DNA of 37,492 nucleotides, taken from assembly GCA_937922735.1 (NCBI GenBank), contig CALAJL010000060.1, positions 1 through 37,492 on the forward strand, read 5' to 3'. Origin of the DNA: an uncultured Gammaproteobacteria bacterium (GTDB lineage: Bacteria > Pseudomonadota > Gammaproteobacteria > UBA4575). Each line of letters begins with the position of its first letter. The stretch's first letter is position 1. A program made the translations under genes and the position numbers. Shown here piece after piece: positions 21,135-34,147 of this stretch. A model generated the notes under the pieces. It did no database searches. It was not told where the DNA came from and was given only the letters and a program-made list of their open reading frames with translations.

Positions 21135-22148
21135 ATGAATTCGACGCCGATATATGTAGAAGCTCCAGCACGTTTGCACTTGGGGTTTTTGGATCTTAAT
21201 GGTGGCTTGGGAAGGCGTTTTGGCAGTGTTGGGCTAACATTAGATGGATTAGCTACTAAGATCATTGCGCGACCTGCTGACCAACTTAAAGTCATAGGTG
21301 ATCCGACTGGCCGTGTTCAGAAATACGCAGAAAAATTTATTGCCTACAAAGGTTTGTCTGATAACTTCGAGCTAGAAGTCGTGGAACAGATTCTAGGTCA
21401 TTCCGGTTTAGGCTCTGGCACTCAGTTAGCTATTGCAGTCGGCACAGCACTTTCTAGGTTATTTGGACTCGAGACAAAAAGCGCTGAGATTGCCGTTTTA
21501 TCAAACCGTGGCGCTAGATCAGGTATTGGTATCGGAGCATTTGATCGAGGCGGGTTTTTAGTTGACGCGGGACGAAATTCAGAAAGTACGGTGCCGCCAA
21601 TAATTTCTCGATTGGCATTTCCATCGAATTGGCGCGCAATACTCATCTTTGATAAAAGTCAGCGTGGGCTTCACGGGCAAGATGAAGATGCATCATTTGC
21701 TAAATTGCCTGATTTTTCGCCACAAACGGCGGATAAGCTATGTCGATTAGTGATTATGCAGATTTTGCCAGCGGTATGTGAACAAAGCATTGATATCTTT
21801 AATCAGGGTATATACGAACTACAAAAATGTATTGGTGAATATTTCGCGTCAGCTCAAGGAGGGCGTTATACTAGTCCCGCAGTCGCAGAGGCATGTGGTT
21901 TTCTAGAGTCTTTAGGTGTGCAAGGAGTGGGCCAAAGCTCCTGGGGACCTACAGGATTTGCATTTGTTGACAGTGAAACAAATGCGCATTTAATGTTGAG
22001 AAAGTTACAGTCAAAATTTGAGTCTGTTGAAGAGTTAAATTTTAAGATCGTTTCAGCTAGAAATACTGGAGCAGTCGTGAAAAATTTAGAACAAAAAGAT
22101 TTAGAAAAACAAGAAATTACTTCTTTGTCAAAATCAAATAAGTCTTAA
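21135..22148 (+). CDS. Beta-ribofuranosylaminobenzene 5'-phosphate (beta-RFAP) synthase, GHMP-like
   Basis: EAPARLHLGFLDLNGGLGRRFGSVGLTLDG, HSGLGSGTQLAIAVGTAL, GARSGIGIGAFDRGGFLVDAG. Confidence 0.93.
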   Translation: MNSTPIYVEAPARLHLGFLDLNGGLGRRFGSVGLTLDGLATKIIARPADQLKVIGDPTGRVQKYAEKFIAYKGLSDNFELEVVEQILGHSGLGSGTQLAIAVGTALSRLFGLETKSAEIAVLSNRGARSGIGIGAFDRGGFLVDAGRNSESTVPPIISRLAFPSNWRAILIFDKSQRGLHGQDEDASFAKLPDFSPQTADKLCRLVIMQILPAVCEQSIDIFNQGIYELQKCIGEYFASAQGGRYTSPAVAEACGFLESLGVQGVGQSSWGPTGFAFVDSETNAHLMLRKLQSKFESVEELNFKIVSARNTGAVVKNLEQKDLEKQEITSLSKSNKS

Positions 22149-22243: not shown

Positions 22244-23152
22244 ATGGAAAAGCCATATATCCTTCACATGTTCACCCCCGCAAAAAATTTAAGTCCTTTT
22301 GACGTTAACATGGCACTAGATGCTGGTTGGGATAACGCAGTGGGTTATACAGACGTAGAAAAGGATGATGTTCAAGCCTTAACGCAAGATGCAATTTTCT
22401 CACGTAGTCCATCTGGCCTTAAGCGCACAGGTATATTTTTAGGTGGGCGCGATATGCATATGGCAATGGATATGATGGAAATCGTTCAAGAATCAATGGT
22501 GCCACCCTTTAAGGTTTCGTGTTTTGCTGACCCTAGTGGAGCTTTTACAACTGCTGCGGGCATGGTTGCGTCGGTTGAGCAAGCATTGAAAGATAAGCAT
22601 GATACTGATCTTAATGGCAAGTGCGTAATTGTCATGGGCGGAACAGGGCCAGTAGGTTCTACTGCTGCTGTTTTGGCCGCCAAAGCTGGTGCGGCTAGCG
22701 TGAAAATTTTAGGTCGTAAAAAAGATAAATCACAACGTGTGGCAGCGTTATGTAATAGCGAATACGGTGCTGATCTGACTGGAATTGAAGGTGAGGCTAA
22801 TGATGAGATTGATGCAATTGTGGATAAGGCTGATGTGATTTTGGCTTGTGCTGCAGCGGGTGTTCAAGTAATTACAGAAGAACATATCAAAAACGCCGCG
22901 ACAGGGTTAAAAGTTGCTGCTGATGTAAACGCAGTACCACCATCAGGGATTTATGGACTTGATGTGATGGGTGCATGTGAGCCAATTGAAGGTTCCAAGA
23001 ATGCATTTGGAATAGGTGCATTGGCAATTGGTAACGTGAAATACCAAACCCAACACAGATTACTGAAAGAGATGCATGATCGAGATGAGCCTATCTATAT
23101 TCATTTTGAGCGTGCGTTTGAAGTAGCTAGAGAAATTGTGCAAGGAAAATAA
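22244..23152 (+). CDS. mtdB: NAD(P)-dependent methylene-H4MPT dehydrogenase
   Basis: LHMFTPAKNLSPFDVNMALDAGWD, GGRDMHMAMDMM, CFADPSGAFTTAAGMVA, VIVMGGTGPVGSTAAVLAAKAGA. Confidence 0.93.
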   Translation: MEKPYILHMFTPAKNLSPFDVNMALDAGWDNAVGYTDVEKDDVQALTQDAIFSRSPSGLKRTGIFLGGRDMHMAMDMMEIVQESMVPPFKVSCFADPSGAFTTAAGMVASVEQALKDKHDTDLNGKCVIVMGGTGPVGSTAAVLAAKAGAASVKILGRKKDKSQRVAALCNSEYGADLTGIEGEANDEIDAIVDKADVILACAAAGVQVITEEHIKNAATGLKVAADVNAVPPSGIYGLDVMGACEPIEGSKNAFGIGALAIGNVKYQTQHRLLKEMHDRDEPIYIHFERAFEVAREIVQGK

Positions 23153-23187: not shown

Positions 23188-24291
23188 TTGCCTAATTATT
23201 TGGTTTTAGCTACATCTGGCCGTGCAATTGCGCAAGGTATAACGTCATTAGGATGTACGGTTGCTGTTGTAGATGGGTTTGGAGATTGTGATACTCATGC
23301 AGCAGCAACTGAAGCTTTAAAAATCGAACGATCTTACTTTGGTCTGGATCACGACAGTGTATTGCGGTCAGTTCAAGACTTGCAGACTAGAATGTCCTTC
23401 GATGGAGTACTGTTTGACGCTGCAATTGAATCAGATCCACAGTTACTGGATGCAATTAATATATTCCCCATACTTGGTAACTCAAGACATGTTATAGAGA
23501 CAGTAAAAAATGCTGAGATATTTTTTTCAACATTAGATCAGTACTCCATTCCCTATCCTGAAACTAAGCTTCATTTATCACCACAAGAGTACTCTAGTGA
23601 TATGTGGCTAGTGAAACATGCACAAGGAACAGGAGGAGTGGGGGTAACGGCTACAAATACAGATGTTGATATAACTAAAAACGTCTACTTTCAAAAAAAA
23701 TTAAACGGTAAAAGTTTTTCGATTACTCTTTTGGCAAATGGAGATGATCTATTTGCATTAGGTTTCAATACATTATGGAGTGAGTCGCTTGGACAATCAG
23801 TTCCTTATGCATATGCAGGAGCTATTAATCAAGTAAAGCTTGCAGATAATATTCTAGAAACCGCCTTGAGCTATGCAAAAGTGTTAGTTAAAGAGTTCAA
23901 GCTTGTAGGATTGAATAGTATCGATTTTATATATGCAGAACATTCAATGTATGTTCTAGAAATTAATCCGCGCATTCCTGCAACCTATGAGTTATATGAG
24001 ACTAAACACGGTGAATTGATGGAGCGACATATTCAGGCATGCGTGCATCAGCAGTTGCCAGAAGTAATAAGTAAACCATTATTACGAGCCCATGCGGTAG
24101 TGTATGCCCCAAAAGATATAACTATTCCAGCAGACGTATCTTGGCCACTCTGGACAGCCGACAGGCCGCAAGCGCTAGAGTTGATTAAGAAATTAGACCC
24201 GCTATGTAGTATTTTTGCAGGAGGTAAGAATTACTCTCAGGTGAATGATTCGATAAAAACACGCAAACGTACTATTTTAAGTAAATTTTAA
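23188..24291 (+). CDS. ATP-grasp domain protein (H4MPT cluster)
   Basis: ATP-grasp features (WLVKHAQGTGGVGV, FIYAEHSMYVLEINPRIPATYELYE); TTG start preceded by AAGG; position between mtdB and mch. Confidence 0.82.
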   Translation: MPNYLVLATSGRAIAQGITSLGCTVAVVDGFGDCDTHAAATEALKIERSYFGLDHDSVLRSVQDLQTRMSFDGVLFDAAIESDPQLLDAINIFPILGNSRHVIETVKNAEIFFSTLDQYSIPYPETKLHLSPQEYSSDMWLVKHAQGTGGVGVTATNTDVDITKNVYFQKKLNGKSFSITLLANGDDLFALGFNTLWSESLGQSVPYAYAGAINQVKLADNILETALSYAKVLVKEFKLVGLNSIDFIYAEHSMYVLEINPRIPATYELYETKHGELMERHIQACVHQQLPEVISKPLLRAHAVVYAPKDITIPADVSWPLWTADRPQALELIKKLDPLCSIFAGGKNYSQVNDSIKTRKRTILSKF

Positions 24292-24399: not shown

Positions 24400-25344
24400 A
24401 TGATCAGTGTAAATGAATTAGCAAAACCATTAGTACATGAACTGATATCTAAAAGTGAAGCATTACGAGTTAATGTTGGAAAGTTTTCTAATGGTGCGAC
24501 TTATATAGATGCCGGTATTGAATGTGTTGGTGGATTAGAGGCTGGAAGGATAATTGCTGAAATATGCATGGGCGGTTTGGGGAATGTGAATCTATATCAT
24601 GCATCTGCTATAGGGGATTGGCCTTTGTCTCTGCATGTACACACATCACATCCCGTATTAGCTTGTTTAGCAAGCCAATATGCTGGCTGGAGCCTATCAC
24701 ATGAAAAATTTCATGCGCTAGGTTCAGGTCCGGGTCGTGCAATTGCATTAAAAGAACCTTTGTTCGAAGAACTTGGTTATAAAGACGAATGTGATAGTGC
24801 CGTGTTTGTGCTTGAGGTGGATACACTGCCACCTATCGAAGTTATTGATAAGGTTGCTGAAACATGCAAACTGGCACCAAGTGCACTGACATTTATTTTA
24901 ACTCCAACAAGCTCTATAGCTGGAAACATGCAAGTAGTTGCTCGTGTGCTAGAAGTTGCATTGCACAAAACTCATGAATTACATTTTCCGTTAGATCATA
25001 TTCTTGATGGTTCCGCTAGCGCACCGCTGTCTCCACCGATCCCTGATTTCGTAAAAGCCATGGGCCGCACGAATGATGCAATCTTATTTGCAGGCAGAGT
25101 GCAATTGTTTGTAAAAGGAGATGATGTTGCTGCAGAAAAATTAGCGAAAGAGTTGCCTTCAAGTACATCTCGAGATTATGGGAAACCGTTTGCACAAATC
25201 TTCAAAGATTATGAATATGATTTCTTTAAAGTTGATCCAATGTTATTTAGTCCTGCATCGGTAATGGTTACAGCAGTAGATAGTGGTAAAACATTCCGTG
25301 GAGGTGCTTTAGACTCTGCTTTATTAGAAAAATCATTTACATAA
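24400..25344 (+). CDS. mch: Methenyl-H4MPT cyclohydrolase
   Basis: [60 protein letters not shown]-type C-terminus. Confidence 0.95.
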
Positions 25345-25353
25345 TACAATTCT

Positions 25354-26268
25354 GTGTCAAAGCATATTGCATTAGTTACGGATGATCCTGGCTGGCATGG
25401 ACGACAGCTTCATGATGCGTTTTTAAGAAAAGGTTATAAATGTACAAACGTATCGCTGGCTGACTGCTATATTAATGTTGGTTGTGGTGATGACACTGAA
25501 AAAAATAAAAATACTTTATATATACCTGGATTTGAAGATTCATTGCCGGATGGTGTATTTGTGCGTGGAGTGCAGGGGGGGACCTTAGAAGAAGTCGTCT
25601 TTTATTTGGATGTACTTCATGCCTTGCATGAATTAAATATTCTTGTGTATAACAGTGCTCGAGCCATTGAACGTAGTGTTGATAAAGGCATGACAAGTTT
25701 TTTGTTGGACCAGGCCGGTATACTTACGCCACCCACCTGGGTTGGAAATGATGTCCATCAGGCTTACTCTTTTATTCGAAGAGAATTAGCGTTAGGTAAT
25801 AAAGTGGTTGCTAAGCCACTATTTGGATCGCAAGGAAAAGATCTGCAGCTTATTTCTAAGGCTGAGGATATTACAAATTTTAAGGTCTACAATAAAATTT
25901 ATTACTTGCAACGCTTTATAACAACGGGTGATCAAAGCGCGTTTGATTGGCGAGTATTTGTCATTGGGGATGAGGTGGTTGCTTGTATGAAAAGAGAAGG
26001 GATGGATTGGATTAGCAATGTTGCAAATGGTGGCAAGTGTTACTCAGCAATGATAGATGACCAGTTTGCGAGTATCTCAAAACGGGCTGTGCGTGCAGTC
26101 GATATGCATTATGCAGGTGTTGACGTTATGCAAGATCTACATGGCAAATTGTGGGTTACTGAAGTGAATAGTATTCCCGCCTGGAAAGGTTTGGAAAGTG
26201 TAAATAATCTTGTAGTTGCCGATAAACTTGTCGAGAATTTCATAAATAGTATGGGTGTTGGGAACTGA
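25354..26268 (+). CDS. RimK-like ATP-grasp protein (H4MPT-cluster orf5-like)
   Basis: NSARAIERSVDKGMTSFLLDQAGILTPPTW, VVAKPLFGSQGKDLQL, GVDVMQDLHGKLWVTEVNSIPAWKGLE; GTG start. Confidence 0.87.
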   Translation: MSKHIALVTDDPGWHGRQLHDAFLRKGYKCTNVSLADCYINVGCGDDTEKNKNTLYIPGFEDSLPDGVFVRGVQGGTLEEVVFYLDVLHALHELNILVYNSARAIERSVDKGMTSFLLDQAGILTPPTWVGNDVHQAYSFIRRELALGNKVVAKPLFGSQGKDLQLISKAEDITNFKVYNKIYYLQRFITTGDQSAFDWRVFVIGDEVVACMKREGMDWISNVANGGKCYSAMIDDQFASISKRAVRAVDMHYAGVDVMQDLHGKLWVTEVNSIPAWKGLESVNNLVVADKLVENFINSMGVGN

Positions 26269-26407: not shown

Positions 26408-27256
26408 ATGGATCAGTACCCAAAATTACGCAAAGAGCTAATTAAGCACTATCTTTATGTCTGTAAGTTAGATGTAGAGTCATTAAAGCCAGGCAATATA
26501 AGTGTTTACTCGGGCGGCAAAGATCTTAGTGTTGATGATTTTTTGAGCAGCGCCAAGGTGAGTTCAGAACCAATAACAGACCCTGAATCTTCTTTGGGGT
26601 TGCGAATTCTGAATGCAATTACTGCAACTCATGCCGCGGTTCATACCAATACAAATTTAGGAATGGTGCTTTTAATGGCGCCACTCATTCATGCGAAGTT
26701 CAAAAAGCGTCAAGAAGAGAGTATCGAGGATGCAATCACCAAAGTGATGTCTTCTACTACGATTAACGATGCGCAGAACGTATATCAAGCTATTAGTGTG
26801 GCAAAACCAGGTGGAATGGGAGAAAAAAGTAATCAAGATATTTCTGAAGAACCTACTGTAACCCTCTTAAATACAATGGAAATTGCTTCAAAATGGGATT
26901 TGATTGCTGCTCAATATTCGAACAATTTTGATGATATATTTAATTTTGGTGTGCCGCGTTATCAAGCATTGCTGAAGAAGTGGGGTGATGAAAAATGGGC
27001 TACCACAGGATTGTTTCTATCCTATTTAAGGTACTACCCAGATAGTTTAATTGAACGTAAATTTGGGCTGTTAAAAGCTAGAGAAATTAGTGATATGATC
27101 TCGGCTCTTGAGATGGAGCTCTGCCATTCGGACTCACCGAGTAGGTACGAGGCACAATTATTAGAAATTGATCGCCAACTCAAGCGTAACCTAATAAACC
27201 CGGGGACCACAGCGGATCTCACTGCAGCTAGCATTTTTGCGGCTGGCCTAATCTAA
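26408..27256 (+). CDS. Triphosphoribosyl-dephospho-CoA synthase (CitG)-like protein (H4MPT-cluster orf7-like)
   Basis: LDVESLKPGNISVYSGGKDLSVDDFLSSA, THAAVHTNTNLGMVLLMAPL, VAKPGGMG are CitG-family features. Confidence 0.87.
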   Translation: MDQYPKLRKELIKHYLYVCKLDVESLKPGNISVYSGGKDLSVDDFLSSAKVSSEPITDPESSLGLRILNAITATHAAVHTNTNLGMVLLMAPLIHAKFKKRQEESIEDAITKVMSSTTINDAQNVYQAISVAKPGGMGEKSNQDISEEPTVTLLNTMEIASKWDLIAAQYSNNFDDIFNFGVPRYQALLKKWGDEKWATTGLFLSYLRYYPDSLIERKFGLLKAREISDMISALEMELCHSDSPSRYEAQLLEIDRQLKRNLINPGTTADLTAASIFAAGLI

Positions 27257-27399: not shown

Positions 27400-27927
27400 A
27401 TGGCAATAATCAATAGAGTTATGACTGGAGAGTCGCTCGTTAATGATAACGATCCTTCAGGCACTATGGCTGAAATTGCACACATCGATTTATTGATCGG
27501 TCCACGCGGTTCTGCTGTTGAAACTGCTTTTTGTAATGGCTTGGTAAATAACAAGGACGGCTTCTCAACTTTATTAGCTGTTGTTGCACCAAACCTTCCT
27601 TGTAAGCCAAATACAATGATGTTCAATAAAGTGACCATCAAAGGTGGCGAGCAAGCAGTTCAAATGTTTGGCCCAGCTCAAGCAGCTGTAGCTAAAGCAG
27701 TAGCTGATAGTGTTGAAGATGGCACTATCCCTGCAGACGAAGCGGATGACGTTTTTGTTTGTGTTGGTGTTTTCATTCACTGGGAAGCTAAGAGTAACGA
27801 AGCTATCTATGAAAACAACTACAAAGCTGTAAAAGAATCTTTAGAGCGCGCCGTTAAGGACGAGCCTAAGGCTGCTACAGTTGTTGCACAAAAAGACAGC
27901 GCAGAGCACCCATTCAAGGGTTTCTAG
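27400..27927 (+). CDS. fae: Formaldehyde-activating enzyme
   Basis: [72 protein letters not shown], highly characteristic of Fae. Confidence 0.97.
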
Positions 27928-28174: not shown

Positions 28175-29401
28175 ATGCGTATGCAATGTAAGGAATGTAA
28201 CAAAGAGCTTGTAAACCAAATAGACAATACGCACTTGTATGACTGTTGTGGTTTAACGTTGCAAGAATATGCATTACGCCACCATCTACCTTTAGATCTG
28301 TTGCTGAACTCAGACCAGATTAATCAGCGCGATGATATTACTAACTATATAAAACCAACTCAGACATCTACTCAACAAGTTCAAGATATTCTTGCCGGTC
28401 TTTATATGGCAAATGCTATAAGGCAAGATGGTGATTTCACAGTTATCACGCTAGGTATTCGTAGATTAGAACAATTGCTCTGGTATCAACAATCTTTACA
28501 AGTAGTTGGTTTTCAGTTTAAGCAAGAATATTTTTACGAGAATAATAGCCATCGAGTAGTGGCAAAAAATTCCATTAAAGTCCCATCATCTTATTTGCCT
28601 CCTCGTATTGTTAATAGCTCAGATGAGTCGTTTCTACAACAAATTGCAGTATTGATTGGGCATATTGGTGAAATGCATAGTGGTTATTTGTTTCTAGACT
28701 TTCCTGGTGCGGAAGATGCAAATCGTGTCGAGAGTGAATTAGCTAAAAAACATCAAATTCGTTTTACAGAACTTGATGCATCGGAACATGAAAAAGGCCA
28801 GTTAATGAGGTGTGAAACACTTGAAGACACCTCACGATTAATCAGTCTCCTGTCTCGTTATTTGCAAGAAATACCAAATGCTTGTGAAAGGTTTTTTGAT
28901 CAACATGAGCAAGCGACTGTGGTTAAAGAATTGGTTTTTGATTCTGCACATTTCATAACTGACCATCCAGATAAGTGTGTAAATCTGCATGGCGGTAGAT
29001 ATGCCATGAATGTCAAAGTAAAAGATTATATTGATCCTTTAACAGGATTTGTTTTGGACTATGGGTATTTGAAACGCATCGCAAAACAAAAAATAGTAGA
29101 TGAATTGGACCACCACAACCTAAATTATGTTACTGCTGAATTATCATGGCGTTCTAGTACAGAGTTGTTGAATATATTCATTTGGGAGAAATTGATAGAA
29201 TATCTTCCTGGTTTAACTGAACTGCAGATATATGAAACAAGTCAATCACATTGTACGTTTGTTGGACCAAGTTTGGATGAATTACAAAAGAAAGGTAAAA
29301 GCAGTTTATTGAGATATTTTGTCTCGGACGAATTAGGTAAGTCGCAACTACGTAATCTGTTAAGCCAAAGTTCTCTGCGCAGGCTCAAAGTTATTGGTTG
29401 A
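28175..29401 (+). CDS. 6-pyruvoyl-tetrahydropterin synthase / QueD (COG0720)-like protein with N-terminal extension containing a CxxC motif
   Basis: C-terminal LVFDSAHFITDHPDKCVNLHGGRYAMNVKVKDYIDPLTGFVLDYGYLK...LDHHNLN resembles PTPS; N-terminal CKECNKEL...CCGLTLQEYALRHHLPLDLLL. Confidence 0.85.
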   Translation: MRMQCKECNKELVNQIDNTHLYDCCGLTLQEYALRHHLPLDLLLNSDQINQRDDITNYIKPTQTSTQQVQDILAGLYMANAIRQDGDFTVITLGIRRLEQLLWYQQSLQVVGFQFKQEYFYENNSHRVVAKNSIKVPSSYLPPRIVNSSDESFLQQIAVLIGHIGEMHSGYLFLDFPGAEDANRVESELAKKHQIRFTELDASEHEKGQLMRCETLEDTSRLISLLSRYLQEIPNACERFFDQHEQATVVKELVFDSAHFITDHPDKCVNLHGGRYAMNVKVKDYIDPLTGFVLDYGYLKRIAKQKIVDELDHHNLNYVTAELSWRSSTELLNIFIWEKLIEYLPGLTELQIYETSQSHCTFVGPSLDELQKKGKSSLLRYFVSDELGKSQLRNLLSQSSLRRLKVIG

Positions 29402-30098
29402 GTTGTAGGATATCATTAGGTTCAATACTTTGTTTATGCAGGGAAGTTGATATAAGTGCGCCAGCGCAACCAATTGATTTCAAGCTTTCCATTTCACTTA
29501 TATTTCTAATACCTCCACCATAGAAGATATTAAAATTATTAATTAATTCTATTTTATTAAGGTCAGACGGAAATTGAAAACCTTGTTCTGAGCCAACACT
29601 ATGAAGGTTTAGTATGATTACATCCTTGGGCCATTGTTCTTTGTACTGTAATAGTTCTTGTAAGCCTATTAAGTGATCAGATTTATAATCCAAAGATAAG
29701 ATAAAATTATGATTATGATACTGCTTAAGCGTAGAAGAAAAAGCATCTATCGAGGGTAATGATTCAGAAGACAATATGATGCGTAAATTCTCTAGCTTGG
29801 ATCTATTTAAATAATGTTTAATTAATAAAAAACCAGTATCTAACCAAAATTCTACATCTGGAAAGGTGTGGCAAATAGATTCTATGGTATTAATGTGATT
29901 GTCTAGATGTTCTAGAGCATCTAAGTCAGCAATATAGAATGATTTAAAATCAAATACTTTTAATAAACCATTAATGACCTCAAGAGGATGAGAAGAGATG
30001 CAAATATTGGAGGATATTGGCTGATATTGATCTCGTTTTCCTTGTATAGCGTGGACAACGATGCCTTGGCTTAAATCAAGTACAGGAATAGTTAACAT
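29391..30098 (-). CDS. HisA/HisF-related TIM-barrel protein (H4MPT/methylofuran cluster)
   Basis: MLTIPVLDLSQGIVVHAIQGKRDQYQPI, FYIADLDALEHLDNHINTI, FNIFYGGGIRNISEMESLKSIGCAGALISTSLH; start trimmed from 30149 to 30098. Confidence 0.87.
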   Translation of the reverse strand: MLTIPVLDLSQGIVVHAIQGKRDQYQPISSNICISSHPLEVINGLLKVFDFKSFYIADLDALEHLDNHINTIESICHTFPDVEFWLDTGFLLIKHYLNRSKLENLRIILSSESLPSIDAFSSTLKQYHNHNFILSLDYKSDHLIGLQELLQYKEQWPKDVIILNLHSVGSEQGFQFPSDLNKIELINNFNIFYGGGIRNISEMESLKSIGCAGALISTSLHKQSIEPNDILQLNQ

Positions 30099-30108
30099 TA
30101 CTAATAAT

Positions 30109-31104
30109 ATGAATATATTGATTTTTGAGTATATCACTGGTGGTGGCATGGTGGGGCAGTCATTACCTGCAGCGCTTGTGAAGGAAGGAGAAGTGATGCT
30201 AAAGGCTATTGCATGTGATTTTTCAGATATAAGTGATGTCCAAGTGAGTATTTTACGTGATTATAGATTGTTGTCGTCTGATCGGGATATGGTTGAATAT
30301 GTAGTTACAGAGGAGCGTAATTACAGGGATATTATTGAGTCTATTGAAGAGGAAATTGATGCTTTAATAATAATTGCGCCAGAATGTAACGGCGTATTAG
30401 AAAATCTATGCAATGAATATTCAGATCGAAATTTCATATTATTAAATAGCGCAACGGAGAGTGTTGAGTTAACCAGTGATAAATTAAAAACGCATGCATA
30501 TTTATCTGAGAACAATATTGCTCAGATTCCAACTTTTGAGATCCATGATATTGATTGTATTGAGTCAGAAAAAATTATTGTCAAACCCGTTGATGGTGTA
30601 GGTTGTGAAAATATATACCTTGCAACTAAAAAAACTAATTTTGATAAGTTATTGAGTTCAGCTGAAGAATATAACTATATTGTACAACCTTATATACAGG
30701 GTAAAAATGCAAGTTTATCTTTATTGTGTTGGGATGGCGAATGCAGAATATTGTCTGCAAATGCTCAGACTATAAATGTAAATGACGAGTGTCTGAGTTT
30801 ACAAGGGTGTGTCGTTAATGCATTAGAACGTGATGAATTTTTACAATTTAGCATGAATTTAATTAAAGCTATTCCTGGCTTAAAAGGGTATGTAGGAATA
30901 GATATCATTATTACGGAAGACGAAATATTGTTAGTGGAAATCAATCCAAGGTTAACAACTTCCTATGCAGGATTGAAGTCAGCTTGTGGATTAAATGTAG
31001 CAGAATTGATTCTAAAAACATTTGTTAATCAGCGTTTGCCAAGCTTTATAATTCCACAAGGCACAAGCGTTGTAATTCATACTGGGGCTGAATATGCAGC
31101 CTAA
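30109..31104 (+). CDS. ATP-grasp protein, MfnD/orfY-like
   Basis: MNILIFEYITGGGMVGQSLPAALVKEGEVMLKA, KPVDGVGCENI, GYVGIDIIITEDEILLVEINPRLTTSYAGL; start trimmed from 30061 to 30109. Confidence 0.87.
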   Translation: MNILIFEYITGGGMVGQSLPAALVKEGEVMLKAIACDFSDISDVQVSILRDYRLLSSDRDMVEYVVTEERNYRDIIESIEEEIDALIIIAPECNGVLENLCNEYSDRNFILLNSATESVELTSDKLKTHAYLSENNIAQIPTFEIHDIDCIESEKIIVKPVDGVGCENIYLATKKTNFDKLLSSAEEYNYIVQPYIQGKNASLSLLCWDGECRILSANAQTINVNDECLSLQGCVVNALERDEFLQFSMNLIKAIPGLKGYVGIDIIITEDEILLVEINPRLTTSYAGLKSACGLNVAELILKTFVNQRLPSFIIPQGTSVVIHTGAEYAA

Positions 31105-32155
31105 AGCAATTGGTTGGGATATTGGTGGGGCGCATGTAAAGATTGCAATACATGATGGGAAACACATTACACAAATCTATCAATTTGAATGCCCACTTTG
31201 GAAAGGGATCGATGAATTAAGTTCATGTATTCATGAAGTCAAAAATTTAATTAATGTGTTGGACTATACGCATGCGGTCACGATGACAGGTGAATTAGTA
31301 GATCATTTTGAAAATAGAGAGCAAGGTGTTCGTGCGATTATTTCTGAAATCTCGACGAGATTAAGTAAAGCTGATATTAAGTTTTATGCAGGAAGTATAG
31401 GGTTTGTCGGTTTAGAATCAGCGATTGCAGAGCATAGTAATATCGCTTCTGCAAATTGGTTGGCGAGTGCACATTATACTGCGATGAAAATGGAAGATGC
31501 ATATTTCATTGATATAGGAAGTACAACAACAGATATCGTAGAAGTGCGCGATCATAGAGTGCTAAATAGCGGTATTACGGATGAGCAAAGGCTAATCGCT
31601 AAAGAATTAGTATATTGTGGGGTAGTTAGAACTCCTATTTTTGCAATTTGTAATTCTGCACAAGTCGGTGACAAAAATGTACCAATAATAAATGAATACT
31701 TTGCAAATACTGCAGATGTCTATCGGTTAACAGATGAGTTACCAGGGCATGCAGATCTTGGGAATACACTTGATGGGCGCAATAAAGATAAAATTAATAG
31801 TGCAAAACGACTTGCACGTATGTTTGCAAATGATTTCAAGAAGGAAGATATTTCTAAATGGGAAAAAGTGGCCATGCAAGTACGCACACATCAAGTTCAA
31901 ATGCTAAAAGATGCTTGTCGGCATCAATTTATGAATAAAAAAGTGCCATTAACTACTCCAATGGTAGGCGCTGGAGTTGGGCGTTTTCTAATCAAAGACC
32001 TGGCGCATCAACTGGGTAGGCAATATATAGATTTTGATGAATTGTTTGCTAAAAGTGCAATTGATACTGAATTTGAAATTGGTGATTGTGCGCCTGCCGC
32101 TGCGGTAGCATGTTTATTACTAAACGCTCAAAACAAACCGGATAAATTTGCGTGA
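31094..32155 (+). CDS. Hydantoinase/oxoprolinase-like H4MPT-linked C1 transfer pathway protein (MfnF-like)
   Basis: AIGWDIGGAHVKIA, FIDIGSTTTDIVEV, ARMFANDF, MVGAGVGRFLIKDLA, CAPAAAVACLL. Confidence 0.88.
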   Translation: MQPKAIGWDIGGAHVKIAIHDGKHITQIYQFECPLWKGIDELSSCIHEVKNLINVLDYTHAVTMTGELVDHFENREQGVRAIISEISTRLSKADIKFYAGSIGFVGLESAIAEHSNIASANWLASAHYTAMKMEDAYFIDIGSTTTDIVEVRDHRVLNSGITDEQRLIAKELVYCGVVRTPIFAICNSAQVGDKNVPIINEYFANTADVYRLTDELPGHADLGNTLDGRNKDKINSAKRLARMFANDFKKEDISKWEKVAMQVRTHQVQMLKDACRHQFMNKKVPLTTPMVGAGVGRFLIKDLAHQLGRQYIDFDELFAKSAIDTEFEIGDCAPAAAVACLLLNAQNKPDKFA

Positions 32156-33549
32156 GTGACTTCTTAATTGCCGATATACCGTACTCCACTGATAGTAGTG
32201 TGTTATTTGATAAATTTGCAGATGAGCCATGGTCTGTTTTTTTAGACAGTAATCAACCCAATGCTATACATGGACGCTATGACATTATCAGTTCAAGGCC
32301 TAAGGTTTGTATAACCAGTAAAAATAATCGAAACAGTATAGATTCTTTTACTGAATCATTATCGATCCCTGGAGATCCATTCTCGATTCTAAAAGAATAT
32401 ATGCAACCGAATGAAATAGCAGAAACTGATCTGAAGCTTCCTTTCCTGGGTGGTGCGATCGGCTATTTCAGTTATGACTTAGGCCGGTCTATAGAAAAAA
32501 TTCCAGATTTATCAGAGAATGACTTAGACCTTCCTGACCTTAAAATTGGTATTTATTCATGGGCACTCATAGTTGATCATCGGAAGAAGGTATCGGTGCT
32601 TGTGGGCAATAAAAATGATTTACGTACAAGGCGAGAGTGGAATGATTTAGTAAGTCTCATTACAGATAAAAGTCCACTCAAAAAGCGCAAAAAATTTAAT
32701 GTTTTGAGTGAGGTTGTTTCGAATACAAGTGAAGCTAATTATGCAAGTTCATTCGCTAAAATAAAATCATATATTAGCGAGGGTGATTGTTACCAGGTCA
32801 ATCTTGCGCAGCGATTTAATGCATCAGTGCAAGGTGACCCATGGGAAGCCTATCAATTACTGCGGTCGATTAACCCATCTCCATTCAGTGCTTATCTGAA
32901 CTATAAAGATATCCAAATTCTAAGTAATTCGCCCGAACGATTTTTATCAGTTCGTGATCGAATAGTAGAAACAAAACCAATTAAAGGTACAAGGCCTAGA
33001 TCGAAGAATAATCTCGAAGATGATGCACTTATGCGGGAGTTGATTAACAGTAAAAAAGATCAGGCCGAGAATGTAATGATAGTAGATCTTCTGCGTAATG
33101 ATATAAGCAAAAACTGTTCACTAGGTTCAGTTAAAGTGCCTAAGTTGTTTGATATTGAAAGTTATCCCAATGTTCATCATATGGTCAGTACGATTACAGG
33201 AAAGTTACGTAAAAATCGAACTTCAATCGATTTATTGCGGGGTAGTTTTCCTGGTGGATCTATCACCGGTGCACCAAAGCTGCGATCTATGGAAATAATA
33301 GAAGAATTAGAGCCGCATCGACGTGGTATATACTGTGGATCGATAGGCTACATAAGTAATGATGGCAATATGGATACGAATATAGCAATACGCACTATCT
33401 TACATAAAAATAAAAAAATGTATTTCTATGCAGGTGGCGGTATCGTGTATGACTCTGATGTGCATGCAGAATATCAAGAAACATTTGATAAAGCTGCGGC
33501 GATGATGCAAGTGCTTAATCAAGGTAACCAATATGCAGAAGGACAGTAG
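32152..33549 (+). CDS. pabB: Aminodeoxychorismate synthase component I
   Basis: Chorismate-binding fold with PIKGTRPR (PabB-type Lys), NVMIVDLLRNDISK, GSFPGGSITGAPKLRSMEIIEELEP, DTNIAIRT; GTG start overlapping the upstream stop (GTGA). Confidence 0.93.
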   Translation: MSDFLIADIPYSTDSSVLFDKFADEPWSVFLDSNQPNAIHGRYDIISSRPKVCITSKNNRNSIDSFTESLSIPGDPFSILKEYMQPNEIAETDLKLPFLGGAIGYFSYDLGRSIEKIPDLSENDLDLPDLKIGIYSWALIVDHRKKVSVLVGNKNDLRTRREWNDLVSLITDKSPLKKRKKFNVLSEVVSNTSEANYASSFAKIKSYISEGDCYQVNLAQRFNASVQGDPWEAYQLLRSINPSPFSAYLNYKDIQILSNSPERFLSVRDRIVETKPIKGTRPRSKNNLEDDALMRELINSKKDQAENVMIVDLLRNDISKNCSLGSVKVPKLFDIESYPNVHHMVSTITGKLRKNRTSIDLLRGSFPGGSITGAPKLRSMEIIEELEPHRRGIYCGSIGYISNDGNMDTNIAIRTILHKNKKMYFYAGGGIVYDSDVHAEYQETFDKAAAMMQVLNQGNQYAEGQ

Positions 33550-34147
33550 TGTATGTCCCGACGCTTGGGCAATAAAAATAGGTGGAAGTCTATATAACAG
33601 CAAGTACCTCGTCGAGTGTCTAGAAGTTATAAAAAAGTGCTCTGACAAGAATATTGTTATTATTCCTGGAGGAGGGCCCTTTGCTGATCAAGTCAGGTTG
33701 GCAGATAAGAAATTTAGTATAAAACCATATTATTCACATCAGATGGCCGTATTAGGCATGCAACAATTTGGGTATCTACTAGCTTCCAGGTGTACTGAGA
33801 TGGTCTTAGCCAATTCCACAGAAAAAATAAATCAAGCTTGGGGTGTATCAAAAGCAGTCATATGGGAACCATATGAGATGGTTCGGGACCAATGTAGACT
33901 AGATCAAACCTGGGAGGTGACATCTGATAGTCTTGCAGCCTGGTTAGCAAATGTTTTAAATATAAGAAATTTATTATTAATTAAGTCTTCTAAAATAGTG
34001 CTAGAAACAACCAATCTAGATGAGCTTGCGCGGTCTAGATGTATCGACATAGGTTTGCAAAAATTAGTGGATCTTTATCAGATCAACACGCAGGTTCTAC
34101 ACAAATCTAAATCAACAAATTTGTCTCAATTATTGAACTCAAATTAG
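33533..34147 (+). CDS. Amino acid kinase family protein (MfnE-like)
   Basis: AIKIGGSLYNSKYLVECLE, VIIPGGGPFADQVR, VTSDSLAAWLANVL. Confidence 0.85.
   Translation: MQKDSSVCPDAWAIKIGGSLYNSKYLVECLEVIKKCSDKNIVIIPGGGPFADQVRLADKKFSIKPYYSHQMAVLGMQQFGYLLASRCTEMVLANSTEKINQAWGVSKAVIWEPYEMVRDQCRLDQTWEVTSDSLAAWLANVLNIRNLLLIKSSKIVLETTNLDELARSRCIDIGLQKLVDLYQINTQVLHKSKSTNLSQLLNSN

Follow-up and report, generated by a model that had tools for sequence, protein, structure and literature searches.

A CitG-like protein of the methylotroph one-carbon cluster as a candidate for α-ribose attachment in H4MPT biosynthesis

The one-carbon cluster and its CitG-like gene

The window analyzed here, a 37,492-nucleotide stretch of DNA from an uncultured gammaproteobacterium (contig CALAJL010000060.1), harbors the 'archaeal-like' one-carbon cluster of methylotrophs. 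On its plus strand, mptG (21135–22148; TIGR00144, 167 bits against a cut-off of 113.5) encodes β-RFAP synthase, the enzyme of the first committed step toward H4MPT, and is followed by mtdB for methylene-H4MPT dehydrogenase (22244–23152; PF09176 Mpt_N, E = 5e-35), a gene for an ATP-grasp protein (23188–24291; PF02655), mch for methenyl-H4MPT cyclohydrolase (24400–25344; PF02289, E = 8e-129, and TIGR03120) and a gene for a RimK/MptN-like ligase (25354–26268; PF08443), which scores 187 bits with the MptN model, below the cut-off. The ATP-grasp protein occupies the same place in most orthologous loci and is possibly OrfY/MyfA of methylofuran. The ligase corresponds by position to orf5/myfB, the function of MyfB being in methylofuran polyglutamate (PMC8141765).

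The CitG-like gene lies at 26408–27256 on the same strand, as an intact open frame of 282 amino acids that runs from ATG to stop over exactly this interval; stops occur throughout the minus strand across it. The gene for the formaldehyde-activating enzyme, fae (27400–27927, plus strand; TIGR03126, 229 bits), starts 143 bases 3' of it. The encoded protein matches the Pfam family CitG (PF01874) over residues 19–278 with an E-value of 9e-61 and a score of 206 bits (cut-off 27), covering profile positions 8–283 of 284; a match of this strength over nearly the full length excludes chance similarity. It is the single PF01874 gene of the source genome (2.14 Mb, 92% complete). Its AlphaFold2 model, built from 32 sequences, is all helical (mean pLDDT 94.3, pTM 0.93), and Foldseek returned one significant PDB match, 3h9p, with an E-value of 3e-7, a TM-score of 0.63–0.66 by query length and 24–25% identity. 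A search against a defence library gave no match. Gene fusions of 370–570 amino acids, suggested by four orthologues, were rejected: their extra N-terminal sequence comes from reading through the upstream rimK in an alternative frame, on GC-rich DNA, and contains no homologous domains.

The order mch-orf5-orf7-fae has been published for Methylosinus trichosporium (PMC3615186), and the CitG-like gene, occupying the same slot in the same order, is thus orf7 by position. It is almost certainly the orthologue of methylotroph Orf7, an identity judged by gene order and not by comparison with the named Orf7 sequence; the literature covered gives no function for Orf7. The preliminary description of this locus had placed here a CitG-family protein with fae next downstream and β-RFAP synthase nearby, and had seen no citrate-lyase or malonate-decarboxylase genes in view. 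The family assignment and both neighbors are confirmed by the matches given above, and the latter statement holds for the window genes scanned.

Beyond fae, between it and the orf17 homologue, positions 28175–29401 encode a 408-residue protein whose N-terminus contains cysteine and whose C-terminal part is a 6-pyruvoyl-tetrahydropterin synthase domain; two annotated plasmid cassettes have no counterpart at that place. Further along, the plus strand carries genes for an ATP-grasp protein related to MfnD (30061–31104; NF040722, 130 bits, below cut-off), an orf9/MfnF-like protein (31094–32155; TIGR03123, 320 bits), a pabB-like protein (32152–33549; TIGR00553, 394 bits against 328) and an MfnE-like kinase (33533–34147; NF040622, 87 bits, below cut-off). 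p-Aminobenzoate is a substrate of RFAP synthase. The orf17 homologue itself, on the minus strand (29391–30149; PF00977, TIGR00734), encodes a HisA/HisF-related protein with a function in methylofuran; it was considered as an H4MPT enzyme and rejected, since an orf17 mutant still contains methenyl-dH4MPT (PMC8141765).

Separation from CitG and MdcB

CitG and MdcB (ATP:3'-dephospho-CoA triphosphoribosyl transferase) share a Pfam family with the window protein over nearly its whole length, but the window gene has no cit or mdc genes around it and stands among one-carbon and methanopterin genes. Curated NCBIfam models for CitG and MdcB (TIGR03125, TIGR03132 and NF002315) have cut-offs of 272 bits or more. 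The window protein reached 19 bits against the CitG cut-off of 272, and the NCBIfam profile search listed no match to MdcB or NF002315. Genuine CitG/MdcB proteins from other Pseudomonadota passed the cut-offs with 286–481 bits under their best models, and in the two loci checked they had mdcA of malonate decarboxylase or citF of citrate lyase as a neighbor. The public name 'triphosphoribosyl-dephospho-CoA synthase', carried by plasmid-borne orthologues of the window gene, is not supported given the score of 19 bits against 272.

In a tree of 68 sequences, a branch of 3.46 changes per site (SH-aLRT 100) set all 15 genuine CitG/MdcB proteins apart from the window protein, its orthologues and all archaeal proteins, together with proteins from Methylomirabilota, Nitrospirota, Planctomycetota, Acidobacteriota and Chloroflexota. 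The structural match 3h9p, an Archaeoglobus fulgidus 'putative triphosphoribosyl-dephospho-CoA synthase' with a function by name only, has Archaeoglobus relatives in the window protein's clade; its identity with the window protein is about 25%, and the A. fulgidus sequence also ends in NPGT.ADLT.

The two clades differ in a signature, which reads NPGT.ADL in the window protein and SPGG.ADLL in genuine CitG/MdcB. This motif comparison is based on loci found with Pfam, namely the 14 orf7 loci, L178–L197 and L228–L237; loci L067–L146 were fetched by the NPGT pattern, so that the motif is built in there. About ten positions are common to both clades (an acid at 22, K27, P28, N81, G85, D212, P265, G266, A269 and D270), a pattern suggestive of one shared catalytic core and, with it, of common chemistry. 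Conversely, the window clade has N30, P92, K218, N264 and T267 where CitG/MdcB have L, L, R, S and G, substitutions that suggest an acceptor other than that of CitG/MdcB. Finally, citF (PF04223) was not found in the 92% complete source genome.

The reading as a true CitG/MdcB was therefore rejected on its low model score, separate clade, signature residues and the lack of a detected citF: the window protein is, very probably, a methanopterin-branch member of the CitG superfamily. The preliminary description had likewise set it apart from CitG/MdcB, and the same four lines of evidence agree with it. The protein did not cluster with bona fide CitG/MdcB in the tree, and no citF was found in the genome as a sign of the citrate lyase operon whose presence the description had regarded as evidence to the contrary.

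Distribution and neighborhoods of the window-type gene

Among 299 Pseudomonadota genomes, PF01874 occurred in 42 and mch in 15. All 15 mch genomes carried a window-type copy close to mch, and in every case in which the motif was read, the PF01874 genes of the other 27 genomes, as well as second copies, showed the SPGG of true CitG/MdcB. In 14 control genomes, PF01874 was present in E. coli and in exactly the four archaea with RFAP synthase: M. jannaschii, M. acetivorans, H. volcanii and S. acidocaldarius, the last of which has MptG and the CitG-family gene and lacks mch. Of 151 Thermoproteota, 58 had both genes, 4 MptG only, 14 CitG only and 75 neither, with MptG counted at 80 bits or above and thus including matches below the curated cut-off; by this count, the CitG-family gene accompanies MptG in 58 of 62 genomes. 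Mch is present in 12 of the 14 CitG-only Thermoproteota. Mch and a CitG-like gene were seen with no recognizable RFAP synthase (TIGR00144) in G459, G472, G480, G504, G510, G532, G558, G564, G579, G585, G588 and G600 and at locus L087 (G310), which may point to a diverged or alternative enzyme at the start of the pathway in these genomes.

PF01874 was found in 113 of 119 Halobacteriota. A match to MptG was obtained in all 26 of these that were checked, exceeding the cut-off in 24 and being weak in one and partial in another, and three of the six Halobacteriota without CitG also lack MptG while keeping Mch. Across 44 named genomes of the window type, MptG scored above its cut-off in 34. Fisher tests gave p-values of 3e-23 and 1e-25, which overstate the case because the relatedness of the genomes violates independence, but the same pattern is seen in seven Pseudomonadota families and several phyla. 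In five sampled genomes with Mch and MptG, not even a clade-specific profile revealed a CitG relative, namely G408, G418 and G428 (Halobacteriota; one lineage by MptG similarity) and G483 and G597 (Thermoproteota). They are the main counter-evidence to a ribosyl-transferase reading; these genomes may encode a replacement enzyme or make a cofactor without ribose.

In 14 Pseudomonadota loci, the rimK-citG order is invariant, mch precedes it wherever the locus is long enough, mptG and mtdB lie upstream in most and fae is usually downstream. Thiodictyon and Phyllobacterium plasmids carry the same order as one compact cassette. On plasmid pT1293c of Phyllobacterium sp. T1293 (L239), the cassette spans about 16 kb and holds most known H4MPT and methylofuran genes, including CitG-like, DUF447 and DHPS-like genes, which makes it a convenient minimal set for heterologous reconstruction. 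The order Mch-MptN-CitG extends to Thermofilaceae, Baldrarchaeota, Caldisericota and Methylomirabilota, and we observed Mch-MptN-CitG-flavoprotein-DHPS-like-DUF447-MptG in a Nitrospirota MAG and CofD-Dus/marker9-CitG-DUF447-dihydromethanopterin reductase-DHPS-like in a methanomicrobial MAG. Within 6 kb, we saw a core one-carbon or methanopterin gene in 44 of 80 window-type loci, many of them on short contigs, and in none of six true CitG loci.

The commonest archaeal neighbor of the CitG-like gene is DUF447, which directly follows it in Archaeoglobi, Hydrothermarchaeota and haloarchaea. DUF447 proteins are FMN-bound split barrels related to flavin reductases (2nr4, 2iml, 2ptf) and, given this fold, likely reductases; perhaps they open the ribofuranosyl ring to ribitol. 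Two further neighbors were observed. A protein with a weak match to the nucleotidyltransferase fold (PF01909) stands beside the CitG-like gene at L085:4798–5832 (minus strand), at the corresponding position of some ten Bathyarchaeota loci, and at L110:6753–7769; it might be a CitX/MdcG-like partner for a phosphodiester step. In Methanomicrobia and haloarchaea, a dihydrouridine-synthase-like protein directly precedes the gene (L116:4775–5881, L108:5156–5902), with a methanogenesis marker 9 domain in addition at L116, and may be another pterin-pathway reductase.

Haloarchaea are reported to use folate, and methanopterin-specific enzymes are said to be absent from them (PMC8305020). The presence of the CitG-like family there is a point against an H4MPT ribosyl role. 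We observed the haloarchaeal CofD-Dus/marker9-CitG-DUF447 cluster together with an MptG homologue at L108:4164–7361 (Haloarcula japonica), at L117 and in genomes G318, G349, G389 and G444. In Haloferax volcanii, the MptG homologue is HVO_2628. This cluster and its MptG, along with the joint loss of CitG and MptG in the three Mch-keeping Halobacteriota, suggest a methanopterin-like cofactor in haloarchaea that has so far gone unrecognized.

Taken together, co-occurrence and conserved operons in both bacteria and archaea make it highly probable that the window protein belongs to the H4MPT biosynthesis pathway, as the preliminary description had proposed.

Proposed reaction, alternatives and implications

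CitG takes the 5''-triphosphoribosyl group from ATP, setting adenine free, and attaches it to the 2'-hydroxyl of dephospho-CoA; the linkage in its product is α. From this chemistry, from the way the cofactor is built and by elimination among the genes of the module, we propose that the window protein forms the α-ribosyl bond of H4MPT to the ribitol, a function that we regard as reasonably probable and for which the CitG-like family is the best current candidate. With regard to elimination, the listed genes of the Phyllobacterium cassette include no O-ribosyltransferase-like gene besides the CitG-like one, and DUF447, being an FMN split barrel, is a less likely ribosyl transferase.

The acceptor, the donor (ATP and not PRPP), the stereochemistry and the step order outlined here are conditional on the analogy with CitG. 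The acceptor would be the ribitol part of an intermediate derived from β-RFAP, (dihydropterinyl-methyl)aminophenyl-ribitol. The terminal ribitol hydroxyl would attack C1 of the 5'-triphosphoribosyl group of ATP and displace adenine, and inversion at C1, from β in ATP to α in the product, would yield a triphosphoribosyl-ribitol. In bacteria, the triphosphoribosyl group would later be trimmed to the free ribose of dephospho-H4MPT, and in archaea it would later be linked to 2-hydroxyglutarate. Thermococcales have a modified folate with an aryl-ribitol and, as far as is known, without the α-ribose. The dH4MPT of Methylobacterium differs from H4MPT in lacking phosphate and hydroxyglutarate (PMC8141765), so that the α-ribose should be present in dH4MPT and therefore be added in bacteria too.

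ATP is favored over PRPP in this proposal because it is a β-riboside from which one inversion would give the α product, whereas PRPP, an α-diphosphate, would require retention. Older work on cell extracts reportedly had PRPP as the ribosyl donor, which counts against ATP, and the assignment of ATP as donor with a triphosphate product is tentative, with the balance leaning against it. Equally tentative is a broader reading, in which ATP-based CitG chemistry with its single inversion would leave a 5''-triphosphate that powers the archaeal phosphodiester to 2-hydroxyglutarate, as CitX/MdcG do with triphosphoribosyl-dephospho-CoA. The pathway would then be kin to that of the citrate-lyase prosthetic group, and the same genes may make a methanopterin-like cofactor in haloarchaea.

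The strongest alternative is that the protein acts at another step of H4MPT biosynthesis, such as another transfer or phosphate handling with the aryl-ribosyl or ribitol intermediate as substrate, or that it partners the DUF447 or DHPS-like protein, with the ribosyl bond formed by an unrecognized enzyme. All pathway evidence is just as compatible with this alternative, the protein departs from CitG in its signature residues, and in 2011 some seven methanopterin genes had yet to be identified (PMC3087415). Nevertheless, we consider it rather unlikely, as it would make a coincidence of the conserved CitG core and of the fit between CitG chemistry and the cofactor's single O-ribosyl bond.

A function in methylofuran instead of methanopterin, as for the neighbors orf5 and orf17, has very little probability. 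In archaea and other bacteria, the gene is found with MptG, DHPS-like, DUF447 and dihydromethanopterin reductase genes, and it follows MptG into S. acidocaldarius, which has no mch, and H. volcanii; to our knowledge, methylofuran contains no ribose. What favors this function is the position of the gene between myfB and fae in Pseudomonadota, together with the reassignment of orf5, orfY and orf17 to methylofuran by LC-MS of mutants (PMC8141765). Least probable, to the point of being scarcely credible, is an ordinary CitG/MdcB making triphosphoribosyl-dephospho-CoA for some acyl carrier protein: the Pfam match and the public annotation of orthologues agree with it, and in Geobacter sulfurreducens citG and citX persist although citrate lyase subunits are absent, so that such proteins can outlive the lyase (PMC2996986), but the model score, clade, signature residues and undetected citF described above argue against it, as does the tie to mch in every mch genome examined.

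The CitG family is already known; what would be new is the function proposed for its methanopterin clade, namely α-ribosyl transfer, and no earlier proposal linking CitG to methanopterin was found in the open-licence literature searched. H4MPT carries one-carbon units in methane formation, in the anaerobic oxidation of methane and in much of bacterial formaldehyde oxidation. If the proposal is true, one gap among the enzymes of H4MPT biosynthesis would close, at a step directly testable in Methylobacterium, and a group of database entries called citrate-lyase accessory proteins would prove misnamed. The gene would also provide a marker for methanopterin-type cofactors and, possibly, a target for lowering the methane output of methanogens.
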